Shown: positions 141 to 62,379 of the stretch, piece after piece
Numbering within the stretch: position 1 is the stretch's first letter
How the letters are laid out: the number at the start of each line of letters is the position of its first letter
Source of the DNA: Zeimonas arvi
GTDB lineage: Bacteria; Pseudomonadota; Gammaproteobacteria; Burkholderiales; Burkholderiaceae_E
Assembly (NCBI RefSeq): GCF_008039575.1
Contig: NZ_VDUY01000001.1
Span: forward strand, 62,001-126,000
Reading direction: 5' to 3'
DNA: 64,000 bases
Translations under genes and position numbers: made by a program
The notes under the pieces: model-generated
The model's database searches: none
What the model saw: the letters and a program-made list of their open reading frames with translations, nothing else
Told to the model about the DNA's origin: nothing

Positions 141-361
141 CGCGGCCGGGGGCCCGATGCCTGCGCCGCGTCCCGTGTGCGCTGGCGCGGGAGCGCAGCG
201 AAGACCCGGCGAGCGAAGCGAGAGCGGAACGCTGTCCGAGGCCCGCCGCAGGCGGGGCGAGTTGCGTTCCGCGACGGGGCTGAGCGCCCGCGCGACCAAG
301 CGTTTCCGCGAAGCGGACAGCGCACCCGGGACCCGGCGCAGGCATCGGGCCCCCGGCCGCG
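141..361 (+). repeat. Repeat copy A: conserved core between long inverted arms
   Basis: The outer arms 141-167 and 335-361 are perfect reverse complements over 27 bp, and the pairing continues inward to 183/319 with a few mismatches. The core (about 179-324) is nearly identical to 62198-62343 and to the reverse complement of the core at 61714-61929. Inside the core are a 9-bp pairing (224-232 with 264-272), a hairpin with stem 305-309/313-317 and loop GAA, and a C-rich/G-rich hairpin near 241-257. The arm sequence is unrelated to the arms of the other copies. The element starts 28 bp past the stop codon of the aminotransferase gene, which reads towards it. It could act as a terminator or mRNA 3' end, or be a mobile element inserted into a hairpin. 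Confidence 0.85.
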
Positions 362-388
362 CCGCGCAAAGTGCGCGCCGTGTCAGCC

Positions 389-1735
389 TTACTCGAGCGC
401 CGAAAGCACCTTCCGAAGCGTCGAAACGATGCGCTCGATGTGCGCCGACTCCAGGATCAGCGGCGGCGACATCGCGATCGTGTCGCCGGTCACGCGGATC
501 ATCAGCCCCTCGTCGAAGGCTGCGACCATCGCATCGTAGGCGCGCGCGCCCACCACGCCGTTGCGCGGCGACAGTTCGATCGCGCCGACCAGGCCGATGT
601 TGCGGATGTCGATCACGTTGGGAAGGTCACGCAGCGAGTGCATCGCGTCTTCCCATTCCTTCTCGAGCCTCGTGGCGCGAGTGAGCAGGCCTTCGCGCTG
701 GTAGATGTCGAGCGTGGCGATGCCGGCTGCGCAGGCGACCGGATGGCCCGAGTAGGTATAGCCGTGGAACAGCTCGATCATCCCCTCGGGGCCGTTCATG
801 AAGGCGTCGTGCACCTTGGCGGTGGCGAACACCGCGCCCATCGGGATCGTGGCGTTGGTGAGCCCCTTGGCGGTGGTGAACAGGTCGGGCTTGACGCCGA
901 AGCGGTCGGCCGCGAAGGGTGTGCCGAGCCGGCCGAAGCCGGTGATGACCTCGTCGAAGATCAGCAGGATGCCGTGCTTGTCGCACAGCGCGCGCAGCTT
1001 CTCGAGATAGCCCTTGGGCGGCAGCAGCACGCCGGTGGACCCCGCCACCGGCTCGACGATGACCGCGGCGATGGTCTCGGCGCCGTGCAGGGCCACCAGT
1101 CGCTCGAGATCGTCGGCCAGGTGGGCGCCCCAGGCCGGCTGGCCGCGCGAGAAGGCGTTGTGCTCGAGATCGTGCGTGTGGGGCAGGTGGTCGACCGCCG
1201 GCAGCAGCGCGCCGGAGAAGGCCTTGCGGTTGTTGACCATGCCGCCCACCGAGATGCCGCCAAAGCCCACCCCGTGGTAGCCGCGCTCGCGGCCGATCAG
1301 GCGGGTGCGCTGGGCCTCGCCGCGCACCCGATGATAGGCGAGCGCGATCTTGAGCGCGGTGTCGACGGCCTCGGAGCCGGAGTTGACGTAGAAGACCTTG
1401 TCGAAGCCCTTGGGCGCGATCTCGATCAGGCGGTTGGCGAACTCGAAGCCGATCGGGTGGCCGAACTGGAACGAGGGCGCGAAGTCCATCTCCTGCAGCT
1501 GGCGGGCGGCGGCCGCGACGATTTCCTCGCGACCATGCCCGGCATTCACGCACCAGAGACCCGAGGTCGCGTCGAGGATCTCCCGCCCTTCCGGCGTCTT
1601 GTAGAAGACGCCCTTGGCCGAGGACACCAGCCTGGGATTGGCCTTGAACTGCCGGTTGGCGGTGAAAGGCATCCACCAGTGGCTCAGGTCGACGGCGGCT
1701 TCTGCGGTCAGGCGCTTGTTCTCGGGGGCATTCAT
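389..1735 (-). CDS. Class III aminotransferase, beta-alanine (omega-amino acid):pyruvate type
   Basis: This is a PLP-dependent fold-type I aminotransferase of 448 aa, a usual length for omega-amino acid:pyruvate transaminases. The N-terminal HWWMPFTANRQFK stretch, the cofactor-phosphate motif NSGSEAVDTALK (about 118-129), the IFDEVITGFGR motif (about 259-269) and the Schiff-base lysine in TTAKGLTNA (Lys290) fit that subgroup. Such enzymes move the amino group of beta-alanine or other omega-amines to pyruvate, giving malonate semialdehyde and alanine. The start at 1735 is chosen because AGGAG lies 8 bases upstream; a longer frame to 1831 has no such site. It is divergent from argE and ends 28 bp before repeat copy A. 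Substrate specificity is inferred from family resemblance only. Confidence 0.85.
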   Translation of the reverse strand: MNAPENKRLTAEAAVDLSHWWMPFTANRQFKANPRLVSSAKGVFYKTPEGREILDATSGLWCVNAGHGREEIVAAAARQLQEMDFAPSFQFGHPIGFEFANRLIEIAPKGFDKVFYVNSGSEAVDTALKIALAYHRVRGEAQRTRLIGRERGYHGVGFGGISVGGMVNNRKAFSGALLPAVDHLPHTHDLEHNAFSRGQPAWGAHLADDLERLVALHGAETIAAVIVEPVAGSTGVLLPPKGYLEKLRALCDKHGILLIFDEVITGFGRLGTPFAADRFGVKPDLFTTAKGLTNATIPMGAVFATAKVHDAFMNGPEGMIELFHGYTYSGHPVACAAGIATLDIYQREGLLTRATRLEKEWEDAMHSLRDLPNVIDIRNIGLVGAIELSPRNGVVGARAYDAMVAAFDEGLMIRVTGDTIAMSPPLILESAHIERIVSTLRKVLSALE

Positions 1736-1898
1736 CGATGACTCCTGTGCGTGCGGGCTGGACGCTGAGGCAGCCGCCCGGGAATTGACGAAAAGGCGCC
1801 GGATTGCCGGTGCTTCCGGAGATTGCGCCATGGTAGCGCGCTAAACTGCGCCGACCAATCCCCGTAACGCCCCGACACTGCCGCAGGCATCCCGAAAA

Positions 1899-3077
1899 AT
1901 GACCGACAAGCGCCCGCAAGCCCCCCTCGCCACCCTGGAAAGGCTGGTCGCCTTCGACACCGTCAGCGCCAACAGCAACGCGGCGCTGATCGACTGGGCC
2001 GCCGAACGGCTGGAAGCCGTGGGCGCCAAGGTCATGGTCCAGCACGCGCCGGAGCCCGGCAAGGCCAACCTGTTCGCCACGATCGGTCCGGAGGACGTGC
2101 CGGGCCTGATGCTGTCGGGTCACTCCGACGTGGTGCCGGTGGCCGGCCAGGCCTGGACGACAGATCCCTTCGTGCTGACCCGCAAGGGCGACAATCTGTA
2201 CGCCCGCGGCTCGGCCGACATGAAGGGCTTCATCGCCTGCGTGCTCGACGCGGCGCCGCGCTTTGCCGCGGGCGGACTGAAGCAGCCGCTGCACGTCGCC
2301 CTCTCCTACAACGAGGAAACGAACATGCACGGCATGCGGCAGTTGGCCGGGCACCTGGCCAGCGCGCCGGTCAAGCCGGCCGCCTGCCTGATCGGCGAGC
2401 CGACCTCGATGCAGGTGGTGGTCGCCAACAAGGGCGCGGCGGGCTTCAAGGTCAAGGTGCGCGGCCACTCGGTGCATTCGTCGCTTCGCGACAGCGGGGT
2501 CTCGGCGGTCGAGATCGCCGCCGAGATCATCCACTTCGTGAGCGAACTGCAGCAGGAACTGCGCGCGGCGGCCCGCCACGACGGCTTCGAGTTCCCGCAC
2601 ACCAGCGTGCACGTGGGCCGCATCCAGGGCGGCACCGCCCACAACATCACCGCGAAGGACTGCGAGTTCCTGCTCGAGATCCGCGCCCTGCCCGGCCAGC
2701 GCGCCACCGACATCCTGGCCCGCATCCGGGCCTTCTGCGACGGGCTGGAGCCGGCCATGAAGGCGATCTCGCCCGAGTGCGGCATCGCGATCGAGGAGGT
2801 CTTCGACACGCCGGCGCTCGACGAACGCGGCAACACCTACCTGGCCAAGGCGATCATGCCGCTGTGCGGTCACTTCGTGCCGGGCCGCGTGAGCTTCGGC
2901 ACCGAAGCCGGCATCCTTCAGGACATCGGGGTGCCCACCGTCGTCTGCGGACCGGGCCGCATCGCGGTGGCCCACCAGCCGGACGAGCACGTCGAAGTCG
3001 AGCAACTCGAGCAATGCATGAAATTCCTGTTCGTGTTAGCCGAACGAATGGAGCAAGGCATTTCGCTTCGGGGCTGA
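1899..3077 (+). CDS. argE: Acetylornithine deacetylase (M20 family)
   Basis: This 392-aa protein has the M20 di-zinc peptidase pattern. The metal ligand motif SGHSDVVPV has His75, ARGSADMKG has the bridging Asp107, and SYNEETNMHG has the catalytic and metal-binding Glu pair 139-140. The residue before the pair is Asn where Asp is common. A lid/dimerisation domain follows (about 180-290), then the C-terminal metal half. ArgE releases acetate from N-acetylornithine in arginine synthesis. The length fits. Related M20 amidohydrolases are hard to separate by eye, so the exact substrate is somewhat uncertain. No strong ribosome binding site precedes the ATG. argG is also in the window but about 60 kb away. 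Confidence 0.8.
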   Translation: MTDKRPQAPLATLERLVAFDTVSANSNAALIDWAAERLEAVGAKVMVQHAPEPGKANLFATIGPEDVPGLMLSGHSDVVPVAGQAWTTDPFVLTRKGDNLYARGSADMKGFIACVLDAAPRFAAGGLKQPLHVALSYNEETNMHGMRQLAGHLASAPVKPAACLIGEPTSMQVVVANKGAAGFKVKVRGHSVHSSLRDSGVSAVEIAAEIIHFVSELQQELRAAARHDGFEFPHTSVHVGRIQGGTAHNITAKDCEFLLEIRALPGQRATDILARIRAFCDGLEPAMKAISPECGIAIEEVFDTPALDERGNTYLAKAIMPLCGHFVPGRVSFGTEAGILQDIGVPTVVCGPGRIAVAHQPDEHVEVEQLEQCMKFLFVLAERMEQGISLRG

Positions 3078-3117
3078 AAGGGCCGGCCGGCATCCCCGTG
3101 GATCGCCGACCGTTTGC

Positions 3118-3137
3118 CTGGTGTACTTGTATACCAG
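3118..3137. promoter_or_regulatory. Operator-like palindrome upstream of the tripartite transporter genes
   Basis: The 20-bp sequence reads CTGGTGTACT then TGTATACCAG, and 8 of 10 positions pair across the dyad. It lies 80 bp before the Bug gene, in the only sizeable gap before that operon. The TGTATAC core resembles sites bound by GntR-family (FCD) repressors, but no such regulator is adjacent, so the binding protein is unknown. Confidence 0.45.
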
Positions 3138-3216
3138 TACGATTGACGCCCGTTGCGCGCCGGCCAGGCCGGCCGCGAGCGATCGCAGCACAAACGACCC
3201 CAGAGGAGAACCGCAA

Positions 3217-4197
3217 ATGAAACGTCGCAACCTGCTCGGCGCGCTCAGCGCCACCGCAGCCGCCCTGAGCTTCGGCCTGGCCAGCGCGCCGGCCATGGCC
3301 GCCTGGCCCGAGCGCCCCATCCAGATGATCGTGCCCTGGGGCGCCGGCGGCGGCACCGATGCCGTGGCCCGCTTCATGGCGGCCGAACTCGAGAAGGAAC
3401 TGGGCCAGCCGGTCAACGTGGTCAACCGGACCGGCGGCAGCGGCGTCGTCGGCCACCAGGCCATCGCCATGAGCAAGCCCGACGGCTACACGCTGGGCCT
3501 GGTGACCGTCGAGATCGCGATGATGCGGCACGCCGGCCTGACCCAGCTGAGCTACAAGGACCTCACGCCGGTGGCGCTGGTCAACTACGATCCGAACGCG
3601 GTGTTCGTGCGGGCCGACTCCCCGATCAAGACCGCGCAGGATCTGCTCGACGCCGCCAAGGCCAATCCGGGCAAGATGAAGTCGGCCGGCACCGGCCAGG
3701 GCGGCATCTGGCACCTGGGCCTGGCGGGCATGCTGGTCGAGTCCAAGCTGGCAGGCGACGCCATCACCTGGGTGCCCAGCCAGGGCGCCGCACCCGGCCT
3801 GCAGGACCTGGTCGCCGGCGGCCTCGACATGGTCTCGTGCTCGCTGCCCGAGGCCCGCGCGCTGATCGACGCCGGCCGGGTACGCCCGCTGGTCCTGATG
3901 GACACCAAGCCCGACAACCTGTTCCCGAAGGTGCCGCTGCTCAAGGACGTCACCGGCAGCAACTGGACCAACGGCGCCTGGCGCGGCATCGCGGGTCCGA
4001 AGGGCATGCCGCAGGACATCGTGGACAAGCTGGCGGCCGCCGCCAAGAAGATCTACGACTCGAAGGCCTACGCAGACTTCCTCGCCTCGCGCGGCTTCGG
4101 CGCCACCTGGGGCGGTCCGAAGGAATTCGGCGACTTCATGGCCAAGGAAGACGAGTCCAAGGGCGCGGTCATGAAGGCCGTCGGCCTGGCGAAGTAA
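3217..4197 (+). CDS. Bug/TctC-family periplasmic solute-binding protein
   Basis: A 326-aa receptor for a tripartite tricarboxylate transporter. It has a basic N-terminus (MKRRNLLG), a hydrophobic signal segment ending in PAMA/AW near residue 28, and the family pattern WPERPIQMIVPWGAGGGTDA in mature lobe 1. It would bind a carboxylate in the periplasm and deliver it to the TctA/TctB membrane pair encoded next. The ATG at 3217 is preceded by AGAGGAGAA. A hairpin at 4214-4238 separates it from tctB. The ligand cannot be read from the sequence; Bug proteins bind dicarboxylates, aromatic acids, amino acids and nicotinate, among others. Confidence 0.9.
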   Translation: MKRRNLLGALSATAAALSFGLASAPAMAAWPERPIQMIVPWGAGGGTDAVARFMAAELEKELGQPVNVVNRTGGSGVVGHQAIAMSKPDGYTLGLVTVEIAMMRHAGLTQLSYKDLTPVALVNYDPNAVFVRADSPIKTAQDLLDAAKANPGKMKSAGTGQGGIWHLGLAGMLVESKLAGDAITWVPSQGAAPGLQDLVAGGLDMVSCSLPEARALIDAGRVRPLVLMDTKPDNLFPKVPLLKDVTGSNWTNGAWRGIAGPKGMPQDIVDKLAAAAKKIYDSKAYADFLASRGFGATWGGPKEFGDFMAKEDESKGAVMKAVGLAK

Positions 4198-4213
4198 GCG
4201 CCTGACAGCGCCT

Positions 4214-4238
4214 CGCGGCGGCCGCAACGGCCGCCGCG
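4214..4238 (+). terminator. Intercistronic hairpin between the Bug gene and tctB
   Basis: A perfect 10-bp GC stem (4214-4223 with 4229-4238) with a 5-base loop is followed by a pyrimidine run containing several T residues (about 4240-4258). It fits a partial terminator or a 3'-end stabiliser that lets the binding protein be made in excess of the membrane subunits, a common pattern in binding-protein-dependent transport operons. Confidence 0.55.
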
Positions 4239-4294
4239 CTCTCTCTCTTTCCGTTCCCTGCTCTCTCCGTTCCCCACCCTCCGAGGCCCGCGTC

Positions 4295-4756
4295 GTGCGC
4301 GTGAACGATACCGTCATCGGCGCAGTGCTGCTCGCGCTGTCGCTCGTCGTGCTCTGGCACGTCAAGGATTTCCCCGCGATCCCCGGACAGCCCTATGGCG
4401 CGGCCCTGTACCCGATCGTGGTTGCCGCGGGTCTGGCGATCGCCTCGGTGCTGCTGCTCCTGCAAGGGCTGCGCAGCGGCGAACCGGTGTTCGCTGCCCA
4501 GGCGACATCGCGCCGCGGATTGCTGGCGTTCGCCGTGACGCTGGGCTCGCTGTTCTTCTACGTGCTGGCTGTCGACGCGCTCGGCTTCATCGTCTGCTCG
4601 CTGCTGATGCTGTCCGCGCTGATGTGGAGCTACGGCGTGCGCGCGTCCCGGGTCGTTCCGGTCGCGATCGTGGCGACCCTCATCATCCACACCGGCTTCT
4701 ACAAGCTGCTCAAGGTCCCCCTGCCCTGGGGCCTGCTGCAGCCGATCGCCTGGTAA
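4295..4756 (+). CDS. tctB: TctB-family small membrane subunit
   Basis: A 153-aa protein with four hydrophobic segments (about 8-24, 40-60, 80-105 and 110-140), the layout of the small TctB subunit. It follows the Bug gene and precedes tctA, completing a secondary carboxylate importer. The start is GTG at 4295 with GAGG 8 bases upstream; a second GTG at 4301 is also possible. TctB proteins are poorly conserved, so the call rests on topology and position. Confidence 0.85.
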   Translation: MRVNDTVIGAVLLALSLVVLWHVKDFPAIPGQPYGAALYPIVVAAGLAIASVLLLLQGLRSGEPVFAAQATSRRGLLAFAVTLGSLFFYVLAVDALGFIVCSLLMLSALMWSYGVRASRVVPVAIVATLIIHTGFYKLLKVPLPWGLLQPIAW

Positions 4757-4774
4757 GCGCCCACGGAGCTCACG

Positions 4775-6259
4775 ATGGAAGCCGTACTCACTGCCCTGCA
4801 AATGGTCGCCAGCATGGACGTGCTGCTGGCGATGCTCGGCTCCGCCCTGTTCGGGCTCTTCGTCGGCGCCGTCCCCGGACTCACCGCCACGATGGCCACC
4901 GCCCTGCTGGTGCCGATCACCTTCTTCCTGCCGCCGATCCCGGCGGTGGCCGTCATGGTGACCGCCACCGCCATGGCGATCTTCGCCGGCGACATCCCCG
5001 GCTGCCTGGTGCGCATCCCGGGCACGCCTGCCTCGGCGGCCTACGTCGACGAATCCTATGCAATGACCCGCAAGGGCCAGGCCGAGACCGCGCTGGGCAT
5101 CGCGCTGGTCTTCTCGGCAATCGGCGGCCTGTTCGGCACCCTGGTGCTGATCTTCGCGGCACCCTCGCTGGCCGAGTTCGCGCTCCAGTTCAGCTCCTTC
5201 GAGTACTTCTGGCTGGTGCTGCTGGGACTCACCTGCGCGGTGTTCATCGCCGGCGACCAGCCGCTGCGCGGCATGGTCACGCTGTTCCTGGGCCTGCTGT
5301 TCGGCGCGGTGGGCCTGGAGAATCCGGCCGCGCACCCGCGCTTCACCTTCGGCAATGCCGACCTGCTGGGCGGCGTGAGCCTGATCCCCGCGATGATCGG
5401 GCTGTTCGCGGTTTCCGAGATCCTGCGCTTTTCGGTCGCGCCGACCCAGATCGACGCGGTCAAGGCCCAGGTGGGCTCGGTCTTCCGCGGCATGGGCGGC
5501 ATGATCATCAAGTACCGCAAGCAGACCCTGCGCGGCAGCCTTCTCGGGACCGCGGTCGGCGCGCTGCCCGGGGCCGGCGCAGACATGGCGGCCTGGATGT
5601 CCTACGCCTTGAGCCGGAAGACCTCGAAGGAGCCCGAGAAGTTCGGCACCGGCCACCCCGAGGGCCTGGTCGAGGCCGGCGCCGCCAACAACAGCGCGCT
5701 GGCCAGCGCGTGGATTCCCGCCCTGGTGTTCGGAATCCCCGGCGACTCGATCACCGCGATCGTGATCGGCGTGCTGTACATGAAGAACATGAACCCGGGG
5801 CCCACGATCTTCATCAACAGCCCCGAGAACATCTACGCGGTGTTCGCGGTGTTCATCCTGGCCAACCTGCTCATGCTGCCGCTGGGTTGGCTGTGCATCA
5901 AGGCCGCCACCCGGCTGCTGCGCACCCCGCGCAACATCCTGATGCCGGTGATCCTGATGTTCTGCGTGGTCGGTTCGTTCGCGATCAACAATTCCCCGTT
6001 CGACCTGTGGATCCTGATCGGCTTCGGCCTGCTCGGCTGGTTCCTCGAGGCGCACAGATTCCCCATCGCACCGGCCATCCTCGGAATGCTGCTCGGCAAG
6101 ATGCTCGAGGAGAACTTCATCACCTCGATGATCAAGTCCGAAGGCAATCTTCTGGGCTTCGTCGACCGGCCGGTGTCGGCTGGGCTCGCCGTGTTCACCG
6201 TGCTCGTCTGGGTGCTGTCGGGCTGGTTCGCGCTTAAGCGGCGAATGGCCAGGAACTGA
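4775..6259 (+). CDS. tctA: TctA-family large membrane subunit of tripartite carboxylate transporter
   Basis: A 494-aa polytopic protein with about 11-12 hydrophobic segments. It carries TctA family signatures: GAVPGLTATMATALLVP near residue 29, a GDIPGCLVRIPGTPASAAYVD stretch near 70, and a second glycine-rich copy LPGAGADMAAWMSYA in mid-protein. Both are thought to line the substrate path. It works with TctB and the periplasmic Bug receptor, driven by an ion gradient. The ATG at 4775 is 18 bp after the tctB stop, with GGAG just upstream. A GC-rich hairpin follows the stop. Confidence 0.92.
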   Translation: MEAVLTALQMVASMDVLLAMLGSALFGLFVGAVPGLTATMATALLVPITFFLPPIPAVAVMVTATAMAIFAGDIPGCLVRIPGTPASAAYVDESYAMTRKGQAETALGIALVFSAIGGLFGTLVLIFAAPSLAEFALQFSSFEYFWLVLLGLTCAVFIAGDQPLRGMVTLFLGLLFGAVGLENPAAHPRFTFGNADLLGGVSLIPAMIGLFAVSEILRFSVAPTQIDAVKAQVGSVFRGMGGMIIKYRKQTLRGSLLGTAVGALPGAGADMAAWMSYALSRKTSKEPEKFGTGHPEGLVEAGAANNSALASAWIPALVFGIPGDSITAIVIGVLYMKNMNPGPTIFINSPENIYAVFAVFILANLLMLPLGWLCIKAATRLLRTPRNILMPVILMFCVVGSFAINNSPFDLWILIGFGLLGWFLEAHRFPIAPAILGMLLGKMLEENFITSMIKSEGNLLGFVDRPVSAGLAVFTVLVWVLSGWFALKRRMARN

Positions 6260-6290
6260 CGCCGGGGCAGAAGAGGCGCTCGCCCCGGCG
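6260..6290 (+). terminator. Hairpin after tctA
   Basis: A 9-bp GC stem (6260-6268 with 6282-6290) and 13-base loop begin immediately after the tctA stop codon. No T tract follows, so it may protect the 3' end or assist Rho-dependent termination rather than act as an intrinsic terminator. Confidence 0.4.
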
Positions 6291-6397
6291 CGGATGACCA
6301 TGGCGCACTGCCTGACCCCGGAAAGGTCTTCCCGGCCTGTGCGACAATCGTCAGTTTTCCGGAACGCTGGGGCGTCACCGTCCCGCCGCTGCCTCTG

Positions 6398-7666
6398 ATG
6401 CTGCTCTGGGTTTCCATCGCGCTCCTGACCCTGGTCGTGACCGCGGCCGTGGTGTGGCCGCTCTTCTCGCGCAAGTCGATTGCGGTCGCCGACGACGATC
6501 TCGACCGACGGCTCGCGGTGTTCCGCGACCGCCGCGACGAGATCGGGCGCGAGCGCGACGCCGGCCGCCTCACCGACGCCGAGGCCGAGCAGGCGCTGGC
6601 CGACCTGCTTCGCCAGATGGCCGAGGAACTGCCGCCGGAAGCGATCGCCGACGCCGGGCAACCGGCGCCGCAGGATGCGCAGGCATCCCGCTCGCGTACG
6701 CCGAGGCTCGCGGGCCTCGCGCTCGCGGTGCTGCTGCCGCTGGTCGCGGTCGGCGCCTATCGCGCGGTGGGCTCGCCCGAGATCGCACTGGCCCAGCTCG
6801 AAGGCCGCTCCGGCGACCTCGCCGGCAGCCCCCAGGCGCAATTCGACGCGCTGGTGGCCGAGATCGAGGCGCGGCTGCGCGCGAACCCCAAGGACGGCGA
6901 GGCCTGGGCGGTGCTGGCCGAGGCCTACAAGATGATCGGCGATCACGGCGCCGCGATCGAGGCCTTCGGCAAGGCGACCGGCCTGCTGCCGCCCAATGCC
7001 CGCTTGCTTGCCGACTACGCCGAATCCACCGCGCTCGCCGCAGGCGGCGACTTCTCCGGCCGACCGACCGAGCTGCTCGAGCAGGCACTGGCCGCCGACC
7101 CGAACGACCCCAAGGCGATCGCGCTGATGGGCGCCGCGCGCTACCGGGCCGGCGACCTGCCCGCGGCGCGCCGCTATCTCGCCCAGTTGCTCGGCACGCT
7201 GCCGCCCGGCTCGCAGGATGCGACGCAGATCGGCGAGGTCGTGGCGCGGATCGACGCCGAACTCGCCGCGCGCGGCCAGACGCCTGCCTCCGGCGGGCAG
7301 CCTGCGGCGCCGACGGGCCCTGCCGTTCTGAGCGGCCGAGTGGAGCTCGCCCCGGCGCTGTCCGGCAAGGTGCCTGCGGGCGCCACGCTCTTCGTGATCG
7401 CCCGGGCGGCTGAGGGCCCCCGGATTCCGGTCGCCGTGCTGCGCCAGCCGGCCGATTCGCTGCCGCTGGCCTTCGAGCTGGGCGACGACAATGCGATGGA
7501 TCCCTCGCGCCTGCTGTCGACCGTCGGCGAGATCGTGCTGGAGGCCCGCATCAGCCCTTCGGGCGACGCGATGCGCAAGCCGGGAGACCTGATCGGCGAG
7601 ACGGTCGCGGCGAAACCGGGCAACACCGGCATCACCCTCGTGGTCGACCGGGTCGTCGAACAGTGA
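6398..7666 (+). CDS. ccmI: Cytochrome c maturation protein CcmI (CycH), TPR apocytochrome chaperone
   Basis: A 422-aa protein. Residues 1-25 form one membrane helix, followed by a charged helix (about 33-80) typical of the CcmI head, a second hydrophobic helix (about 100-122), TPR-like repeats (about 150-260) and a C-terminal beta domain (about 310-422) with PVAVLR and DDNAMDPSRLL. CcmI holds apocytochromes c for heme ligation by CcmF/CcmH. It precedes ccmA here, whereas the gene is often at the end of the cluster. Its stop overlaps the ccmA GTG by four bases. No clear ribosome binding site precedes the ATG. Confidence 0.9.
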   Translation: MLLWVSIALLTLVVTAAVVWPLFSRKSIAVADDDLDRRLAVFRDRRDEIGRERDAGRLTDAEAEQALADLLRQMAEELPPEAIADAGQPAPQDAQASRSRTPRLAGLALAVLLPLVAVGAYRAVGSPEIALAQLEGRSGDLAGSPQAQFDALVAEIEARLRANPKDGEAWAVLAEAYKMIGDHGAAIEAFGKATGLLPPNARLLADYAESTALAAGGDFSGRPTELLEQALAADPNDPKAIALMGAARYRAGDLPAARRYLAQLLGTLPPGSQDATQIGEVVARIDAELAARGQTPASGGQPAAPTGPAVLSGRVELAPALSGKVPAGATLFVIARAAEGPRIPVAVLRQPADSLPLAFELGDDNAMDPSRLLSTVGEIVLEARISPSGDAMRKPGDLIGETVAAKPGNTGITLVVDRVVEQ

Positions 7667-8295: not shown

Positions 8296-8297
8296 GC

Positions 8298-9032: not shown

Positions 9033-9033
9033 C

Positions 9034-9783: not shown

Positions 9784-9968
9784 GCGAATGGCTGGCGATG
9801 GGCGGCCACGGCTTCTACATCTGGAGCTCGTACGCGATGATGGCCTTGTGCGTGGCCGCCGAGATGTGGTCGCTGCGACAGCGCCGTAAGGCCGCATGGC
9901 AGCGCGTGGACGAAGCTCGGGAAGAACACGAGTCGGCCCGGCCGGCTCGCAGAACGGAAACCGAATGA
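9780..9968 (+). CDS. ccmD: Small heme-chaperone complex subunit CcmD
   Basis: A 62-aa protein with one membrane helix (about 12-32) followed by a basic, charged tail, the expected layout of CcmD. It overlaps ccmC and ccmE by four bases on each side (ATGA both times). The opening [19 protein letters not shown] fits the family, where an aromatic segment with a conserved tyrosine precedes the helix. CcmD helps release holo-CcmE from the CcmABC complex. Confidence 0.9.
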
Positions 9969-51031: not shown

Positions 51032-51035
<4 letters not shown>

Positions 51036-54564: not shown

Positions 54565-54614
54565 GTCGCGGGATCCGTGTTCTTGTCAGGGAGAACCGCA
54601 ACATTAGCCGATCG

Positions 54615-54631
54615 CCGGGCGGATCGCCCGG
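54615..54631 (-). terminator. Short hairpin between the sigma factor and aldo/keto reductase genes
   Basis: A 7-bp GC stem (54615-54621 with 54625-54631) with a 3-base loop lies 21 bases past the sigma-factor stop. No T run is present. It may end the sigma-factor mRNA or lie in the reductase leader. Confidence 0.3.
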
Positions 54632-54651
54632 GACCGGTCAGTCAAGCCACC

Positions 54652-55188: not shown

Positions 55189-55277
55189 GTGTCTGTTCTC
55201 CTCTATGGAGCTTCGAAGTCTGCCCAGCGCCCCTTACCCCCCGATCACGGGAAGATCACGATTTGATAACGAATGCC

Positions 55278-55359
55278 GGCCACGGAGCGGCGCCGTGGCC
55301 GCCCCTGCCACCCGCCGTAAGCTGGCAAGCGCCCGGGATACGAAGCTCCCGGGGGTTTT
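55278..55359. promoter_or_regulatory. Two hairpins in the sigma factor/response regulator gap
   Basis: The first has an 8-bp perfect stem (55278-55285 with 55293-55300). The second has a 7-bp stem (55332-55338 with 55347-55353) followed by GGTTTT, like an intrinsic terminator, only 3-4 bases before the response-regulator ATG at 55363. The second could attenuate or hide the ribosome binding site of the two-component operon. The remaining 174-bp gap has no reading frame. Confidence 0.4.
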
Positions 55360-55362
55360 GCT

Positions 55363-56088
55363 ATGCTCGATTCGATGGAAAAGAAGATCCTGGTCGTTGA
55401 AGACCAGCGTGACATCGCCGACCTGATCGCGATGCACCTGCGCGATCTCGGCCACCGCGTGGACTGCGTCCACGACGGCCCGGGCGGCTACGACGCGGCC
55501 CGGTCGGGCCGGCACGACCTGATCGTGCTGGACGTCATGCTGCCGGGCCGCGACGGCCTGGACATCGTTCGCGCGCTGCGCATGGAGCGGGTCACCACCC
55601 CGGTGCTGATGCTGACCGCCCGTTCCACCGAGATCGATCGGGTGCTGGGCCTGGAGCTCGGAGCTGACGATTACCTGACGAAACCCTTCTCGATTCCCGA
55701 ACTGCAGGCCCGGGTCAAGGCGATGCTTCGCCGAATCGAGATGCAGGCGCCGGCCGGCGCTGCGCCCGACATCGACGAACGGATCGACGTCGGCGAGCTG
55801 GTCATCGACTGCGTGAGCCGCGAGGTCCGGATCAACGGCCGGCCGGTGGCGCTGACCGCCCGCGAGTTCGACCTGCTCGCCCACTTCGCGCGCAACCCCG
55901 GGCGGGCCTTCACCCGGATGCAGCTGCTCGACGCGGTCTGGGGCACCTCCTTCGAGGGCTACGAGCACAACGTCAACACGCACATCAACCGGCTGCGCTC
56001 GAAGATCGAGATCGACCCGGCCAATCCGCGCTACGTGCTCACCGTGCGCGGCGTGGGCTACCGCTTCACCGACGAGCGCGCGCGATGA
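55363..56088 (+). CDS. OmpR-family response regulator
   Basis: A 241-aa regulator: a receiver domain (about 5-120) with the acidic pocket VVEDQRD, phospho-acceptor Asp57 in LIVLDVMLPG and Lys in YLTKPFS, then a winged-helix DNA-binding domain (about 140-238) with LTAREFDLLAHFARNPGR and RYVLTVRGVGYRF. It overlaps the kinase gene by four bases. The start may be 55363 or ATG 55375 (MEKKILVVEDQ); the latter matches the usual receiver opening better. Confidence 0.92.
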   Translation: MLDSMEKKILVVEDQRDIADLIAMHLRDLGHRVDCVHDGPGGYDAARSGRHDLIVLDVMLPGRDGLDIVRALRMERVTTPVLMLTARSTEIDRVLGLELGADDYLTKPFSIPELQARVKAMLRRIEMQAPAGAAPDIDERIDVGELVIDCVSREVRINGRPVALTAREFDLLAHFARNPGRAFTRMQLLDAVWGTSFEGYEHNVNTHINRLRSKIEIDPANPRYVLTVRGVGYRFTDERAR

Positions 56089-57560
56089 AATCGCTGCGCA
56101 CCCGGGTGCTGCTGCTGATCGTGGGCTTCGGCCTGCTCATGGCCACCATGCTGGCCACGATCATGTACGCGTCGGTGCGCGAGTACTACAACGACTGGAT
56201 CTACGACAAGTCGAGCAGCTTCGCCGAGCGCATCCTCGAGGCGCACCCCAACCTGTGGCGCGACTACGAGGCGGACCCGGCCTCGTTCGGCCAGCAGCTC
56301 AGGCAGTACACGCTCTACTCGCCCAACACGGGTCTGTACCTGATCGACCAGAACGGCCGGGTGCTGGCCAGCGCCGGCGAGCCGCGGCAGTTCTGGGGCG
56401 AGTTCCGGGTGGATCTCGATCCGGTGCGCGAGGCGCAGGGGGGCGATCCCCGCCAGCCGGTCCACACCACCGACCCCGACCGGCAGGGCGACGTGTGCAT
56501 GGTGGCCGCCCGCCCGGTGGTGCAGGACGGCCGGACGATGGGCTGGCTCTTCGTGGTGCCGCGCCAGGCCAGCCTGGGCGAGCAGATGCCCGAGATGCTG
56601 CGCAGCTACGCGATCCGCACCACGGCCAAGGTGGCCCTGATGACGATCGCCATCGGCGTGCTGCTCACGATCGCGATGATCGCGCTGCTCACGCGGCCGC
56701 TCACCGCGCTCACCCGGGCCACCGAGCAGGTGCGCCGGGCGGGCTTCTGTGACGAGCTCTGCGAGAGCAGCTTCCCCGACCTGGATCGCGACGACGAGAT
56801 CGGCCGGCTCAGCCGCACCTTCCGCGATGCCTTCGAACGGCTCAAGCTCGAGACGGAGCGGGTGCAGACCACCGACGCCCGACGCCGCGAGATGGTGGCC
56901 AGCGTGTCGCACGACCTGCGCACGCCGCTCACCGCGCTGATCGGCCAGCTGGAGACCATCCGGCTCAAGGGCGAGGCGCTGTCCGACCCCGCTCGCCGCG
57001 AGATGCTCGAGCGCGCGCTGCAAAACGCGCAGCACCTACGCCGCCTCACCGAGGCGCTGGCCGAACTGGCCCGCCTGGACAACCCCGACTTCAAGGCGCA
57101 GCCCGAACCGATCGCGATCGGCGAGCTGGCCGACGACGTGGTCCAGCGATTCGCCGCCAGCGCCCAGGGCGCCGGCGTGACGCTGTCGGTCGACTACCCC
57201 GACGGCCTGCCGCTCACGCGTGTCGACGCGGCGCTGGTCGAGCGTGCGCTCTCGAACCTGCTCGACAACGCGCTGCGGGTCACGCCGGCCGGCGGCCGGG
57301 TCACCGTCAAGGTGCGGCCGGAGAAGGCCGGGGTGCGGGTCGAGGTGGTGGACACCGGGCCCGGCGTGCTGCCGGAGGACCAGCCGAAGGTCTTCGACCG
57401 CTTCTTCCAGACCAGCCGCGCGCGCGACCAACGTGGCGCCAGCGGCCTGGGACTGGCGATCGTCAAGCGCGTGGCCGAGCTGCACGGCGGCCAGGCCGGC
57501 CTGAGAAGCGAGCCAGGCCGCGGCTCCACCTTCTTCATCGAGCTGCCCCTGTCCGCTTAG
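56085..57560 (+). CDS. Membrane sensor histidine kinase
   Basis: A 491-aa kinase: a first membrane helix (about 8-28), a periplasmic sensor (about 30-180), a second helix (about 182-203), HAMP (to about 258), a HisKA domain with phospho-acceptor His276 in SVSHDLRTPLTAL, and an ATPase domain (N box LSNLLDNALRV, G1 VVDTGPGV, G2 GASGLGLAIV). The signal is unknown. It is translationally coupled to the response regulator before it and, by TAGTG, to dinB after it. Confidence 0.93.
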   Translation: MKSLRTRVLLLIVGFGLLMATMLATIMYASVREYYNDWIYDKSSSFAERILEAHPNLWRDYEADPASFGQQLRQYTLYSPNTGLYLIDQNGRVLASAGEPRQFWGEFRVDLDPVREAQGGDPRQPVHTTDPDRQGDVCMVAARPVVQDGRTMGWLFVVPRQASLGEQMPEMLRSYAIRTTAKVALMTIAIGVLLTIAMIALLTRPLTALTRATEQVRRAGFCDELCESSFPDLDRDDEIGRLSRTFRDAFERLKLETERVQTTDARRREMVASVSHDLRTPLTALIGQLETIRLKGEALSDPARREMLERALQNAQHLRRLTEALAELARLDNPDFKAQPEPIAIGELADDVVQRFAASAQGAGVTLSVDYPDGLPLTRVDAALVERALSNLLDNALRVTPAGGRVTVKVRPEKAGVRVEVVDTGPGVLPEDQPKVFDRFFQTSRARDQRGASGLGLAIVKRVAELHGGQAGLRSEPGRGSTFFIELPLSA

Positions 57561-58654
57561 TGGAAACCCGCCCCTCGGCGCCGGCCTGGCGCCGGATCGC
57601 CCATCTGGACATGGACGCTTTCTACGCGTCGGTGGAGCTGTTGCGCCGTCCGGAGCTGCGCGGCCGCCCGGTGGCCATCGGCGGCCACGGCGACCCGAAC
57701 AGCCGTGGGGTGGTCACCACCGCCACCTACGAGGCTCGTGCCTTCGGGATCCGCTCGGGCATGGCGCTGCGCCGCGCCGCCGAGCTGTGCCCGGCCTGCG
57801 TGTTCCTGCCGGTGGATTTCCCCGAGTACCGCCTCTGGTCGCGGCGATTCAAGGCCGCGATCGCCGAAGTGACCGTCCGGATCGAGGACCGCGGCATCGA
57901 CGAGGTCTACATCGACTTCAGCGACCTGATCGGCGTACGGATCGACGGCGGTCTGTCGATCGCGCGCGACATCCAGCGCCGCGTCTTCGAGGCCACCGGC
58001 CTGACCTGCTCGATCGGCGTGGCGCCCAACAAGCTGCTGGCAAAGATCGCGTCGGAACTGGACAAGCCGAACGGCATCACCGTGCTCGACGAGCTCGACC
58101 TGCAGGAACGGATCTGGCCGCTGCCGGTCAAGCGGATCAACGGCATCGGTCCGAAGGCCGACGCCCGCCTCGAGGAACTGGGCATCCGCACGATCGGCCA
58201 GCTGGCGGCCGCGCCGCGCGATTTCCTGGTCGCCCGGTTCGGCAGGAGCTACGGCGCCTGGCTGCACGACGCGGCGCATGGCAACGACGACCGCGCGCTG
58301 ATGCTCGAGAGCGAGCCCCGGTCCATGAGTCGCGAGACCACCTTCGAGCGCGACCTGCATCCGGCGCGCGACTTCCAGGCGCTGGCGGCGATGCTGGCGC
58401 GGCTGTGCCGCCAGGTGGCTGCCGACCTGCAGCGGCGCGGCTACGCCGGGCGCAGCGTGGGCGTGAAGGCGCGCTACGACGACTTCCGGATCGTGAGCCG
58501 CGAGCTGACGCTGGCCGAAGCGGTGGACGACGAGCGCGCGATCCGGCGGGCGGCCTTCGACTGCCTGAAGCGGGTGCCGCCCAGCCGGCGGCTGCGGCTG
58601 CTCGGGGTTCGGGTCGGCGCCCTTCAGTCTCGCGGGCCCGCGGCGACGCCGTGA
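57560..58654 (+). CDS. dinB: DNA polymerase IV (Y-family translesion polymerase)
   Basis: A 364-aa Y-family polymerase with LDMDAFYASVE (catalytic Asp17), DEVYIDFSD (Asp114, Glu115; preceding residue Gly where Ser is usual), the palm/thumb block GVAPNKLLAKIASELDKPNG, helix-hairpin-helix KRINGIGPKADARLEELGI and a little-finger domain from about 245. It copies past damaged bases with low fidelity. The C-terminus ends in ALQSRGPAATP with no recognisable clamp-binding QLxLF motif. It starts at GTG 57560 overlapping the kinase stop, so it appears to belong to the two-component operon. Confidence 0.93.
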   Translation: METRPSAPAWRRIAHLDMDAFYASVELLRRPELRGRPVAIGGHGDPNSRGVVTTATYEARAFGIRSGMALRRAAELCPACVFLPVDFPEYRLWSRRFKAAIAEVTVRIEDRGIDEVYIDFSDLIGVRIDGGLSIARDIQRRVFEATGLTCSIGVAPNKLLAKIASELDKPNGITVLDELDLQERIWPLPVKRINGIGPKADARLEELGIRTIGQLAAAPRDFLVARFGRSYGAWLHDAAHGNDDRALMLESEPRSMSRETTFERDLHPARDFQALAAMLARLCRQVAADLQRRGYAGRSVGVKARYDDFRIVSRELTLAEAVDDERAIRRAAFDCLKRVPPSRRLRLLGVRVGALQSRGPAATP

Positions 58655-58656
58655 AC

Positions 58657-58685
58657 GTGACCTTCATCTGATCGCGGCCGATAAT
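58657..58685 (+). promoter_or_regulatory. Sigma-70-type promoter before the second two-component system
   Basis: GTGACC (58657-58662, four of six -35 matches) and GATAAT (58680-58685, five of six -10 matches) are 17 bases apart, directly after the dinB stop. Transcription would start near 58692, just ahead of a strong leader hairpin. Confidence 0.5.
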
Positions 58686-58700
58686 GGGTCCGACACCACC

Positions 58701-58733
58701 ACAGGCGGCCCGACGGGGCCGTCGGGAGCCTGT
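58701..58733 (+). promoter_or_regulatory. Leader hairpin before the NarX-type kinase gene
   Basis: Nested perfect pairing is visible: ACAGGC (58701-58706) with GCCTGT (58728-58733), enclosing CCCGACGG (58709-58716) with CCGTCGGG (58719-58726). It ends 6 bases before the ATG at 58740, and no separate ribosome binding site is visible. The structure could limit translation of the kinase or end readthrough from dinB. Confidence 0.5.
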
Positions 58734-58739
58734 GACCGG

Positions 58740-60941
58740 ATGAGGACATCGAGCCCGCGCGCTTCGCCGGGCGCCAAGCTTCTGTGCGTTGCTCTCGCTG
58801 GCCTGCTCGTCTGCGTGGCCGCGGTCTTCTGGAGCACGCAGCAGCCCTGGCTCGGCCTGAGGCTCGTGCTCGGCTCCGGCGGCCCGGTCGTCGAGGCCGT
58901 GTCGCCGGATGGGCCGGCCGCGTCGCTGGCGCCCGGGGCGGCGCTGAGATCGGTGGGCCCGATCGCGCTCGAGGCAGACGACCTGATCGAGGAGCCCGAT
59001 TTCTTCCGCTACTACGAGCGGATGCAGCGCTTCTTCGCCCGCCAGTCCGCGCTGCACCAGCAGTTGTCCGGCGCGCCCGTGGCGCTGACCGTCGCGGACG
59101 CCGGCGGGGCCACGTCGGAGGTTCTGCTCCCGCCTGCCGAGAGCAGGCCGATCGCCGACCTTCCGCCCTCCTTCTGGTTCCAGCTGGCTTGCGGACTGGC
59201 CAGCCTGCTGATCGGCGCCTGGGTGTGGGTGCTGCGACCCACCAACTGGGGGGCGCGGATGTTCGCGCTCACCGGCGCCCTGTTCCTCGTGTCGGTCGCC
59301 AGCGCCGCGGTCTACAGCAGCCGCGAGCTGGCGCTCGACGGCGGCGCCTTCCGGCTGCTGTCCGGGCTCAACCACACGGGCTCGCTGGGCTTCGGCATGG
59401 CGCTGATCGCGATGTTCCTCTGCTATCCGAAGCGCATCGTGGCGCCGCGCACGCTGCTGCTGATCCCGGCGGTGTTCGTGCCCTGGCTGGCCGCGGACCT
59501 GCTCCAGCTCGCCCCGGACCAGCACTGGGGCATCCGCGCGCCGATCCTGCTGATGGTCGTCATCGCCTTCGCCTGCGCCGCGACGCAGTGGCGGCTCACG
59601 CGCAGCGACCCGCGCGCGCGGGGCGCGCTGCGCTGGATGAGCCTTTCGGCCACGCTGGGCTGCTGGCTGTTCGTCATCACCATCGTGCTCTCCAAGCTGT
59701 TCGGCTGGTTGCCGCCGCTCGACCAGGCCTACGCCTTCGGCTTCTTCCTGATCATCTACGTCGGCACCGCGCTGGGCCTGCGCCGTTACCGACTGTTCGA
59801 GCTCGACCGGTGGGCCTTCCGCGTCCTGCTCTGGATAGGCGGCGCGCTGGCGCTGCTCGCGCTCGACGCGATGTTGGTGCTCAGCCTGCGTCTGGCGCCG
59901 GCCCCGTCGCTGGGCGTCGCCGTGCTGATCGTCGGCCTGCTCTACCTGCCCGTGCGCAACCACCTCTGGAAGCGGATGGTCGATCGCAGGCGCCTTGCCG
60001 ACGACGAACTCTTCCAGGCGGTGATGCAGGTCGCGTTCACCTCGTCGCCCGACGAACGCGCGCAGGCCTGGCGAGCGCTGGTGCAACGGATGTTCGACCC
60101 GCTCGAGGTCGAGACGATCGGCCCGGGCCAGCCGGCTGGCCGCGCAAAGGCGGCTCAGGCCGACGCCGCGTCATCCGACGCGCCTGCCATCCTGAGCGAT
60201 GGCCTCGCCATGCGCCTGCCGCCGGTGGCCGCGTCGCCGGCGCTGCTGGTACGCTACCCCTGGCAGGGGCGGCAGCTCTTCGGCGTCGAGCAGGCGAAGC
60301 TCGCCGGCCAGGTCGTTGCGCTGATGCGGCACGCCGACGCGAGCCGCGACGCCTACGAGCGCGGGGTCGCCGAGGAAAGGCTGCGCCTGGCGCGCGACCT
60401 GCACGACGACCTGGGCGCACGTCTGCTTGCCAGCCTGAAGCGGCCCGACCTCGAATCGACGCGTCGCACGATCCGCGAGGCGATCGCCGAGATGCGCACG
60501 GTCGTGGCCGGGCTCAGTTCCGAGAGCGAGGACCTGGGCGCCTGCATCGCCAGCCTGAGGCACGAGACCGCATCGCGGCTCGACACCTCGGGCATCGAGC
60601 TCGACTGGCCGCTCACCGACGGGGTCGACGGCCTGCGGGTGGACTACCGGATCTGCAAGAACCTGAGCTCGATGCACCGCGAACTCGTCTCGAACGTCCT
60701 CCGCCACTCGCAGGCCGACCGCCTCGCGGTGTCCATCGAACTGAAGGATGGCCGGCTGGTCAGCCGGATCCGCGACAACGGCGTCGGCGGCGTCGAAGCG
60801 CAAGGCGACGGCAGCTTCGGCCTGCGCAACCTGCGCCGCCGGATCGACGAACTGCAGGGCAGCGTGTCGGTGCGCGACGCCGCGCCCGGCACCCTCGTGG
60901 AGATCGAAGTGCCGATCGCGACCGCCGGAGGCCGGCCATGA
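58740..60941 (+). CDS. Multi-pass membrane sensor kinase, NarL-partner (HisKA_3) type
   Basis: A 733-aa kinase. A first membrane helix (about 13-30) is followed by a PDZ-like extracytoplasmic segment (PVVEAVSPDGPAASLAPGAAL, about 50-70), about eight more helices (about 135-415), a cytoplasmic linker, the dimerisation box with His555 in ARDLHDDLGARLL, and an HATPase domain (N box HRELVSNVLRHS, G1 IRDNGVGG, G2 FGLRNLRRRI). The PDZ-like piece suggests sensing of a protein C-terminus or envelope state; this is inference. It overlaps the response regulator gene by four bases. Confidence 0.88.
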   Translation: MRTSSPRASPGAKLLCVALAGLLVCVAAVFWSTQQPWLGLRLVLGSGGPVVEAVSPDGPAASLAPGAALRSVGPIALEADDLIEEPDFFRYYERMQRFFARQSALHQQLSGAPVALTVADAGGATSEVLLPPAESRPIADLPPSFWFQLACGLASLLIGAWVWVLRPTNWGARMFALTGALFLVSVASAAVYSSRELALDGGAFRLLSGLNHTGSLGFGMALIAMFLCYPKRIVAPRTLLLIPAVFVPWLAADLLQLAPDQHWGIRAPILLMVVIAFACAATQWRLTRSDPRARGALRWMSLSATLGCWLFVITIVLSKLFGWLPPLDQAYAFGFFLIIYVGTALGLRRYRLFELDRWAFRVLLWIGGALALLALDAMLVLSLRLAPAPSLGVAVLIVGLLYLPVRNHLWKRMVDRRRLADDELFQAVMQVAFTSSPDERAQAWRALVQRMFDPLEVETIGPGQPAGRAKAAQADAASSDAPAILSDGLAMRLPPVAASPALLVRYPWQGRQLFGVEQAKLAGQVVALMRHADASRDAYERGVAEERLRLARDLHDDLGARLLASLKRPDLESTRRTIREAIAEMRTVVAGLSSESEDLGACIASLRHETASRLDTSGIELDWPLTDGVDGLRVDYRICKNLSSMHRELVSNVLRHSQADRLAVSIELKDGRLVSRIRDNGVGGVEAQGDGSFGLRNLRRRIDELQGSVSVRDAAPGTLVEIEVPIATAGGRP

Positions 60942-61702
60942 GCAGCGCAAGCCCCCTCGCGCTCGTCGTCGAGGACCTGCCCGAAGTCCGAGACTGGCTC
61001 GCCGACGCCCTGCGCCACGCCTTCGGCGAGATCGAGGTCGGCTGCGCCGGCACGCTGGCCGAGGCACGCGAATGGCTGGGCGCGCTGGGCGAGGACACGC
61101 AGGCCGCGGCCCGGTTGCGGATGGCGCTGATCGACCTGGGCCTGCCCGATGGCTCTGGTGTCGACCTGGTCCGGGAGATCGCGGACCGGCTCCCGCAGGT
61201 GCAGACGATCGTGGCCACGATCTACGACGACGACGCACACCTGTTCCCCGCGATCGCCGCGGGCGCGCAGGGCTACCTGCTGAAGGAGCAGGAGCCCGAG
61301 GCGCTGGCCCGGCACTTGCGCCTGATCGGCGAAGGCATGCCGCCACTGTCGCCATCGATCTCGCGCAGGATGCTCGCCCACTTCCGCGAGCGGGGCGCCC
61401 TGCCCGGCGGCGAAGCGGCGGCACAGGCTGGCGCGGCGCCATTCCGCGCCAGTGGCGACCCGCCGCTCGCGCAGCAGGCAGCCGCCGGCAGCGACGCCGC
61501 GATGGAGGCCATCACGCTGAGCCCGCGCGAGACAGAGGTCCTGTCCTACATCGGACGCGGACTGCGGGTGGCCGAGGCGGCGCGGGTGCTGGGGCTCACC
61601 GAGCACACGGTGGCGGGGTACGTGAAGACGCTGTACCGGAAGCTGAACATCTCGTCGCGGGCGGAGGCGGCGCTGGAGGCAGCCAGGCGCGGGCTCGTGT
61701 GA
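60938..61702 (+). CDS. NarL/LuxR-family response regulator
   Basis: A 254-aa regulator with a receiver domain (about 5-130) carrying VVEDLPE and phospho-acceptor Asp66 in ALIDLGLPDGSG, Lys in YLLKEQE, a flexible Ala-rich linker (about 150-185) and a LuxR helix-turn-helix (LSPRETEVLSYIGRGLRVAE to TVAGYVKTLYRKLNISSR, about 190-245). It is the partner of the preceding kinase. Repeat copy B begins 12 bases after its stop codon. Confidence 0.92.
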   Translation: MSSASPLALVVEDLPEVRDWLADALRHAFGEIEVGCAGTLAEAREWLGALGEDTQAAARLRMALIDLGLPDGSGVDLVREIADRLPQVQTIVATIYDDDAHLFPAIAAGAQGYLLKEQEPEALARHLRLIGEGMPPLSPSISRRMLAHFRERGALPGGEAAAQAGAAPFRASGDPPLAQQAAAGSDAAMEAITLSPRETEVLSYIGRGLRVAEAARVLGLTEHTVAGYVKTLYRKLNISSRAEAALEAARRGLV

Positions 61703-61713
61703 TGCGGTGCGCC

Positions 61714-61929
61714 GGGCGTTCGAGGTGGGGCCTACTTTCGGGCCCCGGCGCGCTGTCGCCTTCGGCGAAACGCTTGGTCGCGCGGACGCTCAGCCCCGGC
61801 CGCGGAACGCAACTCGCCCGCCTTCGGCGGGCTCAGACAGCGTTCCGCTCGCGCTTCGCGCGCCAGGTCTTCGCTGCGCTCCCGCGCCAGCGCACAGGGG
61901 CCCGAAAGTAGGCCCCACCTCGAGCGCCC
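61714..61929 (-). repeat. Repeat copy B: conserved core between long inverted arms
   Basis: The outer arms 61714-61746 and 61897-61929 pair over 33 bp with one mismatch, and 61720-61746 with 61897-61923 is perfect. The arm sequence is unrelated to copies A and C. The core between them, read on the minus strand, matches the other cores closely. Its small hairpins keep pairing despite base changes: stem 61756-61760/61764-61768 differs from copy A at two pairs, both compensated. The element starts 12 bases after the response-regulator stop, with the core antisense to that gene, the same relation copy A has to its neighbour. Confidence 0.85.
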
Positions 61930-62160
61930 TCGGGTCGCAACACTTTGGCACGGACCTGGCGCGCTCCGCGCGCCGTGCTGCGCACGGCCGGTTAGTTCAG
62001 CGCACGCGTCCCTTTAGCGCGCGTGCCCCCGCGACTGCGACGACTACCTTAACGACGGCACATCGAAGGCACCGGCCCCAACGGCCAGCCTCCACTCGTG
62101 CGGCCCCGGGGTCGGGCGAACGAAGCCAAGACAAGTTCAGCGGCGCGCCACGACCTTGCC
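61930..62160. other. Noncoding spacer between repeat copies B and C
   Basis: 231 bp with no supported gene; open frames crossing it are continuations of repeat sequence. It contains GC-rich partial palindromes. At 62102-62122 is a 21-base sequence whose reverse complement recurs at 62439-62458 with one base missing, forming an outer inverted repeat around copy C. Confidence 0.6.
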
Positions 62161-62379
62161 GGCGCGGGAGGGCAGGCGGCGGTTTGCGCGGGCGTGTGCG
62201 CTGGCGCGGGAGCGCAGCGAAGACCCGGCGCGCGCAGCGCGAGCGGAACGCTGTCTGAGGACCGCCGCAGGCGGGCCGAGTTGCGTTCCGCGACGGGGCT
62301 GAGCGTCCGCGCGACCAAGCGTTTCCGCGAAGCGGACAGCGCGCCCGCCCGCGCAAACCGCCGCCTGCCCTCCCGCGCC
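62161..62379 (+). repeat. Repeat copy C: conserved core between long inverted arms
   Basis: The arms 62161-62194 and 62346-62379 are perfect reverse complements over 34 bp, and differ wholly from the arms of copies A and B. The core (about 62198-62343) matches copy A with few substitutions, including the 9-bp long-range pairing and the GAA-loop hairpin. It lies inverted relative to copy B, 231 bp away, and just upstream of the argG promoter. It sits inside a further inverted repeat (62102-62122 with 62439-62458). Confidence 0.85.

Follow-up and report, generated by a model that had tools for sequence, protein, structure and literature searches.

The question raised by a 64,000-nucleotide stretch of Zeimonas arvi DNA (assembly GCF_008039575.1, contig NZ_VDUY01000001.1, positions 62,001 to 126,000; "the window") is how a repeat can keep its middle constant when its ends differ in every copy and still pair with each other. 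The window (G000:C1:62001-126000, G000 being its own genome) holds three copies of such a repeat, with one core of about 145 bp common to all and inverted arms that have no sequence in common. A sequence-only reading had proposed that the element either inserts into the loop of pre-existing long hairpins or, as it spreads, copies flanking DNA into an inverted duplicate. We favor a form of the second answer, in which the structured core would prime fold-back copying of the flank and repeated template switching would keep the arms matched. We give this copying mechanism a probability of about 0.55 and rank it first among the explanations considered, with selection alone second.

Direct reading of the window confirmed the three copies, their shared core and their copy-specific inverted arms (Table 1); the arm lengths first given (27, 27 and 34 bp) hold for copies 2 and 3, and that of copy 1 is 28 bp. 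The core of copy 3 is 95% identical to the core of copy 1 and 92% identical to that of copy 2, which lies on the minus strand, the other two being on the plus strand. A blast search of the window arms against the compared genomes returned their own partners and one weak match of 33 nucleotides (nt) only. No comparable hairpin appeared in 3-base-block shuffles (two of the window and two of 200 kb from a relative), and the window hairpins are far above chance expectation. The window has 108 inverted repeats; of the 25 longest, the ones that lie apart from the core copies match at 71-77%.

A search with this core (core A) found 15 copies and one tip-only match in G000. Across 61 genomes, with at most 14 candidates scored in each and counts taken among the matches listed, some match was present in 17: 12 of the 18 genomes of the genus and 5 outside it, where matches span only 29-60 nt. 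No core A was seen in G002. A first pass extracted 59 core matches, 46 with clear core boundaries by a simple rule; a second pass gave 56 copies, with copies identical in core and inner arm merged, so that the G014 copy fell into that of G013. Five copies with short flanks were dropped, leaving 51 with at least 60 nt on both sides for the pairing test. Paired arms of 29-192 nt were found in 45 of these 51 copies from the genus, and 2975 of 3156 aligned arm positions are complementary. The six exceptions are two with truncated cores (L047+ and L108), one at a contig end (L041), one with an arm that seems to have been exchanged (L033), and L008 and L044-, in which only about 12 bp pair. Paired arms measure 29-62 nt in G000 and G003 and 71-192 nt in G005, G006, G013 and G015, with the exception of L042 of G005 (37 nt); the G014 copy pairs over 100 nt. 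In an all-versus-all comparison of the 45 arm pairs, between-locus matches are 16-60 nt, apart from one pair in G005 taken up below. Family-wide, the arms are thus paired and nearly all locus-specific, as the sequence-only reading expected; that G005 pair goes against it.

The history of the arms can be read from orthologous copies. Twelve of the 15 G000 copies have an ortholog in G003, matched by the upstream gene, and arms were compared in 11 of these pairs (L008 and L044- included; the twelfth, with one core truncated, was excluded). Gene ends are 0.90 identical and 0.80 at third positions (9 pairs measured). The two arms are 0.645 and 0.648 identical between species (shuffled baseline 0.54) and the adjoining intergenic stretch 0.61 (11 pairs), and the mean within-copy arm pairing over the 11 pairs is 0.92 in G000 and 0.91 in G003. 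The arms diverge about as fast as neighbouring DNA, yet remain paired. Alignments of orthologs show blocks swapped out in both arms together, and at mmsA both arms of G014 lack a large segment that G013 has, a mirrored indel. Both marks of a template-switch product were therefore found, namely arms closer within a locus than between orthologs and mirrored multi-base changes. These comparisons indicate that the two arms evolve in concert, and that the loci are old and the arms young, the arms not being fixed parts of the element.

The source of some arms is visible. Three loci (L020; L004 and its ortholog L034; L052 and its ortholog L037) have the 3' end of the neighbouring gene duplicated in inverted form in the far flank. 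At L020, L052 and L037 the arm extends back past the stop codon and the far arm includes the last codons in inverted form; the L037 copy, of 15 nt, was read directly and is not above controls. At L004 and L034 an older inverted gene-end copy survives beyond the inner arm. When gene ends were tested against mismatched pairs, 5 of 39 copies exceeded the 99th percentile (L004, L034, L020, L052 and L017). In the cases with a core, the donor lies on its 3' side, and a coreless hairpin at maoC of G012 also takes in the gene end. Within the window, an inverted segment upstream of copy 3 matches the argG leader on its other side; a 40-nt piece scored 24.5, against a mean of 12.7 and a maximum of 21.5 in 500 shuffles. 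The leader stands 3' of a TATAAT-like box present in relatives (by eye), and the simplest reading is that it was the donor. A gene ends on the 3' side of the core in 40 of 56 copies, the opposite orientation not having been systematically counted. The distance to the core is 47-84 nt in G000 and G003, and in the long-armed species it reaches 210 nt. Copy 3 is an exception, with a gene start (argG) on the 3' side of its core.

From this pattern we infer a fold-back during synthesis, together with its polarity, its strand, the order of events and the role of the core as primer. The core sits beside a gene, the gene being to the 3' side of the core, and DNA synthesis would run through the gene-side flank and the core. 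The new strand would fold at the core so that its 3' end lands on its own gene-side flank, and would copy that flank before rejoining the normal template, with an inverted copy of the flank written on the far side as the outcome. With repeated rounds the arms would go on matching each other even as they drift in sequence; they would belong to the locus and only the core to the family, and the intergenic interior would be the overwritten side. At most loci the arms seem to have been made and remade in place. The earlier idea of a flank copied into an inverted duplicate is supported by the gene-end copies and the joint change of arms. Its framing as a one-time by-product of spreading is not, since most loci are common to G000 and G003 with their arms since rewritten, which fits repeated copying.

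The proposed primer is itself structured. The core, of about 140 bp, can form a branched hairpin, which is closed by GCGCTG/CAGCGC. Across 32 aligned core A sequences (mean identity 84%) the conserved parts are the loops and junctions, and several stems vary, like the outer arms; GTAG at the core junction occurs in the long-armed type only. In the 40-pair fold, 99.4% of cells are paired (26-43% in slid controls) and stem changes comprise 137 two-sided and 4 one-sided cells, but these counts are of sequences rather than events, and the alignment scored is also the one that yielded the fold. Two of five covariation measures are not clearly above shuffles (pairs altered on both sides, 23/500; further pair types, 210/500). 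The tip motif TGTCYGAG...GAGTT also occurs in other hairpins (L016, L026, L027) and in other genera, and may be an older, separate module.

The same anatomy recurs beyond core A, in D and in the mutually related B and C. A count of long hairpins gave 20 for 400 kb of G005. Stretches of 200 kb had 5 in G000, 5 in G011, none in G002, and 1 and 0 in two other genera; stretches of 100 kb had 4 in G003 and one short hairpin in G006. The window itself had 2, neighbouring copies 2 and 3 registering as a single core-to-core pairing. By reading, the 20 in G005 comprise 13 with cores A-D, 6 shared-arm repeats and 1 unassigned. Cores B and C are related (about 72-83% over 84-156 nt). The D cores of G005 resemble that of G000, and by eye the maoC core shared by G011 and G017 also falls with D; core E comprises one G000 locus and its G003 counterpart. 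Long paired arms also occur on types B, D and E (a single locus), less so on C, and the arms of D copies have nothing detectable in common. This behaviour of other cores was absent from the earlier account. We tentatively suggest, with the odds somewhat against it, a class of elements that build their own stems from host DNA, in which the core, as a self-priming hairpin, would drive the copying of any adjoining flank, so that the element would bring just the palindrome axis and each locus would supply the arms. Adjacent copies often form outward-facing pairs, at times of mixed types, and we found no common spacer in them; apart from orthologs, only short or weak stretches of 19-82 nt are shared. 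Downstream of maoC, L129 (G017) and L131 (G011) have a D-like core with 72-100 bp of paired arms where others have core A.

Several observations weigh against the copying mechanism. Two distant, non-orthologous G005 copies, L053+ (G005:C1:335489) and L097 (2064476), share core and arms (89% over 109 nt), with outer ends GAACGTGTGAA, so whole hairpins can be duplicated too. Two B copies have arms 72% identical over 105 nt, and C copies have arms 82-89% identical over 34-44 nt, with a shorter 27-nt match in one pair. At the core junction, mismatches (T-T in the long-armed type) have been kept and not copied away. A gene-end copy was not seen in 34 of 39 copies tested, and the L017 match lies inside the gene, 147-199 nt ahead of its stop codon, and may be chance; three loci and the argG leader thus carry the case for polarity. 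At mmsA in G006 the distal arm alone is retained, either through loss or, possibly, through copying in the opposite direction. Coreless hairpins exist at the orthologous sites G012 maoC and G015 mmsA, so the core is not strictly required. Gene conversion between arms would look similar, and the support is a sequence pattern rather than an experiment or a witnessed mutation event.

Selection for a stable hairpin (an mRNA 3'-end stabiliser, a transcription barrier or a protein site), with compensatory mutations leaving the sequence itself free, is the strongest of the alternatives and in our judgement an unlikely one. The prevalence of gene ends on the 3' side of the core is in its favor, as is the enrichment of stem-loops at gene 3' ends in published surveys (PMC1590033). 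The arms also mostly end near the stop codon, with a median gap of 22.5 nt in 24 short-armed and 9 nt in 12 long-armed copies, which could mean selection on a hairpin and to that extent also counts against copying. Arm length and stop distance are correlated over these 36 copies (rho 0.66) because two arm-length classes are mixed; within either class the correlation is not significant. Selection does not readily account for arms that change about as fast as adjoining intergenic DNA, for the large mirrored indel at mmsA, or for the near absence of one-sided core intermediates, and the inverted coding-end copies require a copying event. In the gene sense, G-T pairs number 16 and A-C pairs 31 (first 8 pairs skipped); G-T is not favored, which argues against selection on mRNA. 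The corresponding excess on the opposite strand is weak (p = 0.04 with the first 8 skipped, 0.02 with 5 outer pairs also trimmed), the untrimmed value (p = 0.0001) being inflated by fixed junction mismatches. No four-T run occurs within 25 nt past the distal arm in 45 of 45 copies, which also led us to reject an intrinsic terminator.

The other answer first offered, mobile cores entering the tips of pre-existing long palindromes, and with it the carriage of cores within inverted-repeat elements, we consider less likely still. At eight genes we compared 60 orthologous gene ends, none with the core A motif and 2 cut by contig ends, counting ungapped hairpins with a score of at least 20 within 500 nt of the stop. 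A long hairpin is lacking at 53 of the 58 fully read sites; the other five have a different core (G011 and G017 maoC), no core (G012 maoC and G015 mmsA) or a 23-bp hairpin in G000 (L170) that bears the tip motif. Also against insertion, 264 kb of G000 contain 7 long hairpins, all enclosing or joining structured cores, and no long coreless one (L170 is elsewhere in G000), and none occurs in the G002 stretch. At the luxR-argG site no hairpin was found in G001, G003 or G010 (in G003 the two genes stand apart), which suggests that the lineage of the window gained copies 2 and 3, loss elsewhere also being possible. We found no recent empty site with alignable flanks from which a target-site duplication could be read. 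Insertion is favored by the two coreless hairpins, by the different cores at maoC among species (A, D-like or none), by the tip motif in other hairpins, and by the shared arms of L053+ and L097, whose bounding word also opens coreless inverted repeats in G005. Insertion into existing hairpins is therefore not supported as the rule and may hold for some loci, given the coreless cases and the copied-element look of core A inside GAACGTGTGAA-bounded arms.

An assembly artefact, in which palindromes arise from fold-back or chimeric reads, is very improbable: metagenome contigs do end in or near hairpins (G008:C22, C37; G013:C8) and L058 and L033 look chimeric, but the same structures recur with orthologous flanks in genomes assembled independently, among them G003 (3 contigs) and G005 (4 contigs). 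Contigs G007:C168 and C216 also stop in or near these hairpins, and draft genomes therefore probably undercount copies. Relative to L012, L033 (G007) has one arm apparently swapped with the partner copy of the pair, which perhaps fits an inversion between two cores, or a misassembly.

We compared the family with known repeats. Rfam 15 gave no match in the window at the gathering score, and a permissive search of five loci gave three matches to two families (a microRNA and an internal ribosome entry site), all under the gathering score. A RAYT-type transposase (Y1_Tnp, PF01797) was not found in G000, G003 or G005 and exceeded the cut-off in 2 of 18 genus genomes. We rejected REP/REPIN sequences spread by RAYT, which are palindromes of 20-40 bp with a stem conserved in the family and a terminal tag, where here there is a core of about 140 bp with locus-specific arms. 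A miniature inverted-repeat transposable element or insertion-sequence derivative was also rejected; arms differ between loci and between orthologs, save one G005 pair, and there are no shared terminal inverted repeats. Keyword searches of the open-access literature did not bring up this family, which does not establish its absence from print.

Published systems, as described in the parts of these papers that we draw on, resemble it in some respects. In E. coli, quasipalindrome template switching makes imperfect repeats more perfect by copying the nascent strand (PMC7202029; Ripley 1982 and Dutra and Lovett 2006 cited there); unlike those cases, here a dispersed conserved core lies at the axis, arms can be as long as 192 nt and many of the loci persist from species to species. 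REP and BIME sequences (PMC3733652; also PMC2817692) are likewise extragenic, structured, near gene ends and often in inverted pairs, but REPs span 20-40 bp, and no RAYT-type transposase was found in G000, G003 or G005. Coding palindromes of nematomorph mitochondria (PMC6649704) are long perfect inverted repeats whose arms change in concert and for which template switching has been proposed; they differ in being mitochondrial and coding, and the parts of that paper used here do not mention a dispersed conserved core. Hairpin elements of sponge mitochondria (PMC2800124) are dispersed and intergenic, with conserved stems and variable loops, the reverse of the present arrangement. Template switching has also been put forward as the origin of RNA stems and as what maintains them (PMC8794818). 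Earlier surveys were limited to arms of 6-30 bp with spacers of at most 10 bp (PMC10434271) or to loops of at most 100 nt (PMC1590033), and these hairpins would have gone unlisted as such. The genus keeps many long palindromes at known places, with a readable record of paired changes, and so provides a natural record of apparent template switching over long tracts. It also cautions against taking paired changes to prove a selected RNA structure, and the family is a test case for the ability of a short DNA module to have its surroundings rewritten.

Long perfect palindromes are generally held to be unstable in bacteria. The hairpin nuclease SbcCD curbs palindrome-driven rearrangement in E. coli, work that fits this instability (PMC3315005). 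Lack of SbcCD may let arms pass 100 bp. SbcD was above cut-off in 0 of 18 genus genomes and in 34 of 200 genomes of the order; as it is under cut-off in 166 of these 200 too, its lack would be at most permissive. SbcC was above cut-off in 0 of 18 genus genomes, which says little, since the cut-off was passed by only 1 of 14 controls. A weak SbcD-like match is present in G000, G003, G007, G001, G010 and G004, whereas no long-armed species has one, a relation to arm length that is confounded by ancestry. At G000:C1:11726-13000 (L221:2227-3501) a 424-aa SbcD-like protein under the SbcD cut-off is followed by a large SbcC-like ATPase; the pair resembles YhaO/YhaN.

The features of the window are collected in Table 1. 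The aminotransferase gene has its 3' end toward copy 1, with 65 nt from stop codon to core. The coordinates of the regulator cover its 3' end only, and its NCBIfam matches are all under cut-off.

Table 1. Repeat copies and adjoining features in the window (positions from the first letter of the window)
Feature	Start	End	Strand	Description
Copy 1, left arm	141	168	+	28 bp, perfect
Copy 1, core A	179	323	+	
Copy 1, right arm	334	361	+	28 bp, reverse complement of 141-168
Aminotransferase	389	1831	-	NCBIfam NF052567 (omega-aminotransferase AptA, above cut-off)
Regulator gene, 3' end	61403	61702	+	LuxR/NarL-type C-terminus, just 5' of copy 2
Copy 2, gene-side arm	61720	61746	-	27 bp, perfect
Copy 2, core A	61750	61893	-	
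Copy 2, distal arm	61897	61923	-	27 bp
Inverted match to argG leader	62098	62145	.	partly decayed, matches 62423-62462 across copy 3
Copy 3, left arm	62161	62194	+	34 bp, perfect
Copy 3, core A	62198	62342	+	
Copy 3, right arm	62346	62379	+	34 bp
argG leader segment	62423	62462	+	mirrored at 62098-62145
argG	62489	63763	+	argininosuccinate synthase

A pattern scan also found carriers among metagenome-assembled genomes, including those called Lautropia sp. SCN 70-15 and SCN 69-89 and several of Burkholderiaceae. A match in Maricaulis (L069) was judged to be chance. The copy in a Limnobacter metagenome-assembled genome (L084) adjoins the same gene end as L024, and that genome may be a misnamed relative. 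In G005, the coreless inverted repeats that the word GAACGTGTGAA also opens are those at G005:C1:106111 and 344793. Another repeat, whose shared arms hold GTTCACACTACGATCG and whose loops are 204-212 nt, occurs at G005:C1:180939, 266593, 280892 and 169053, and a stretch similar to the G005 shared-arm repeat lies within the B-type hairpin at 367838.

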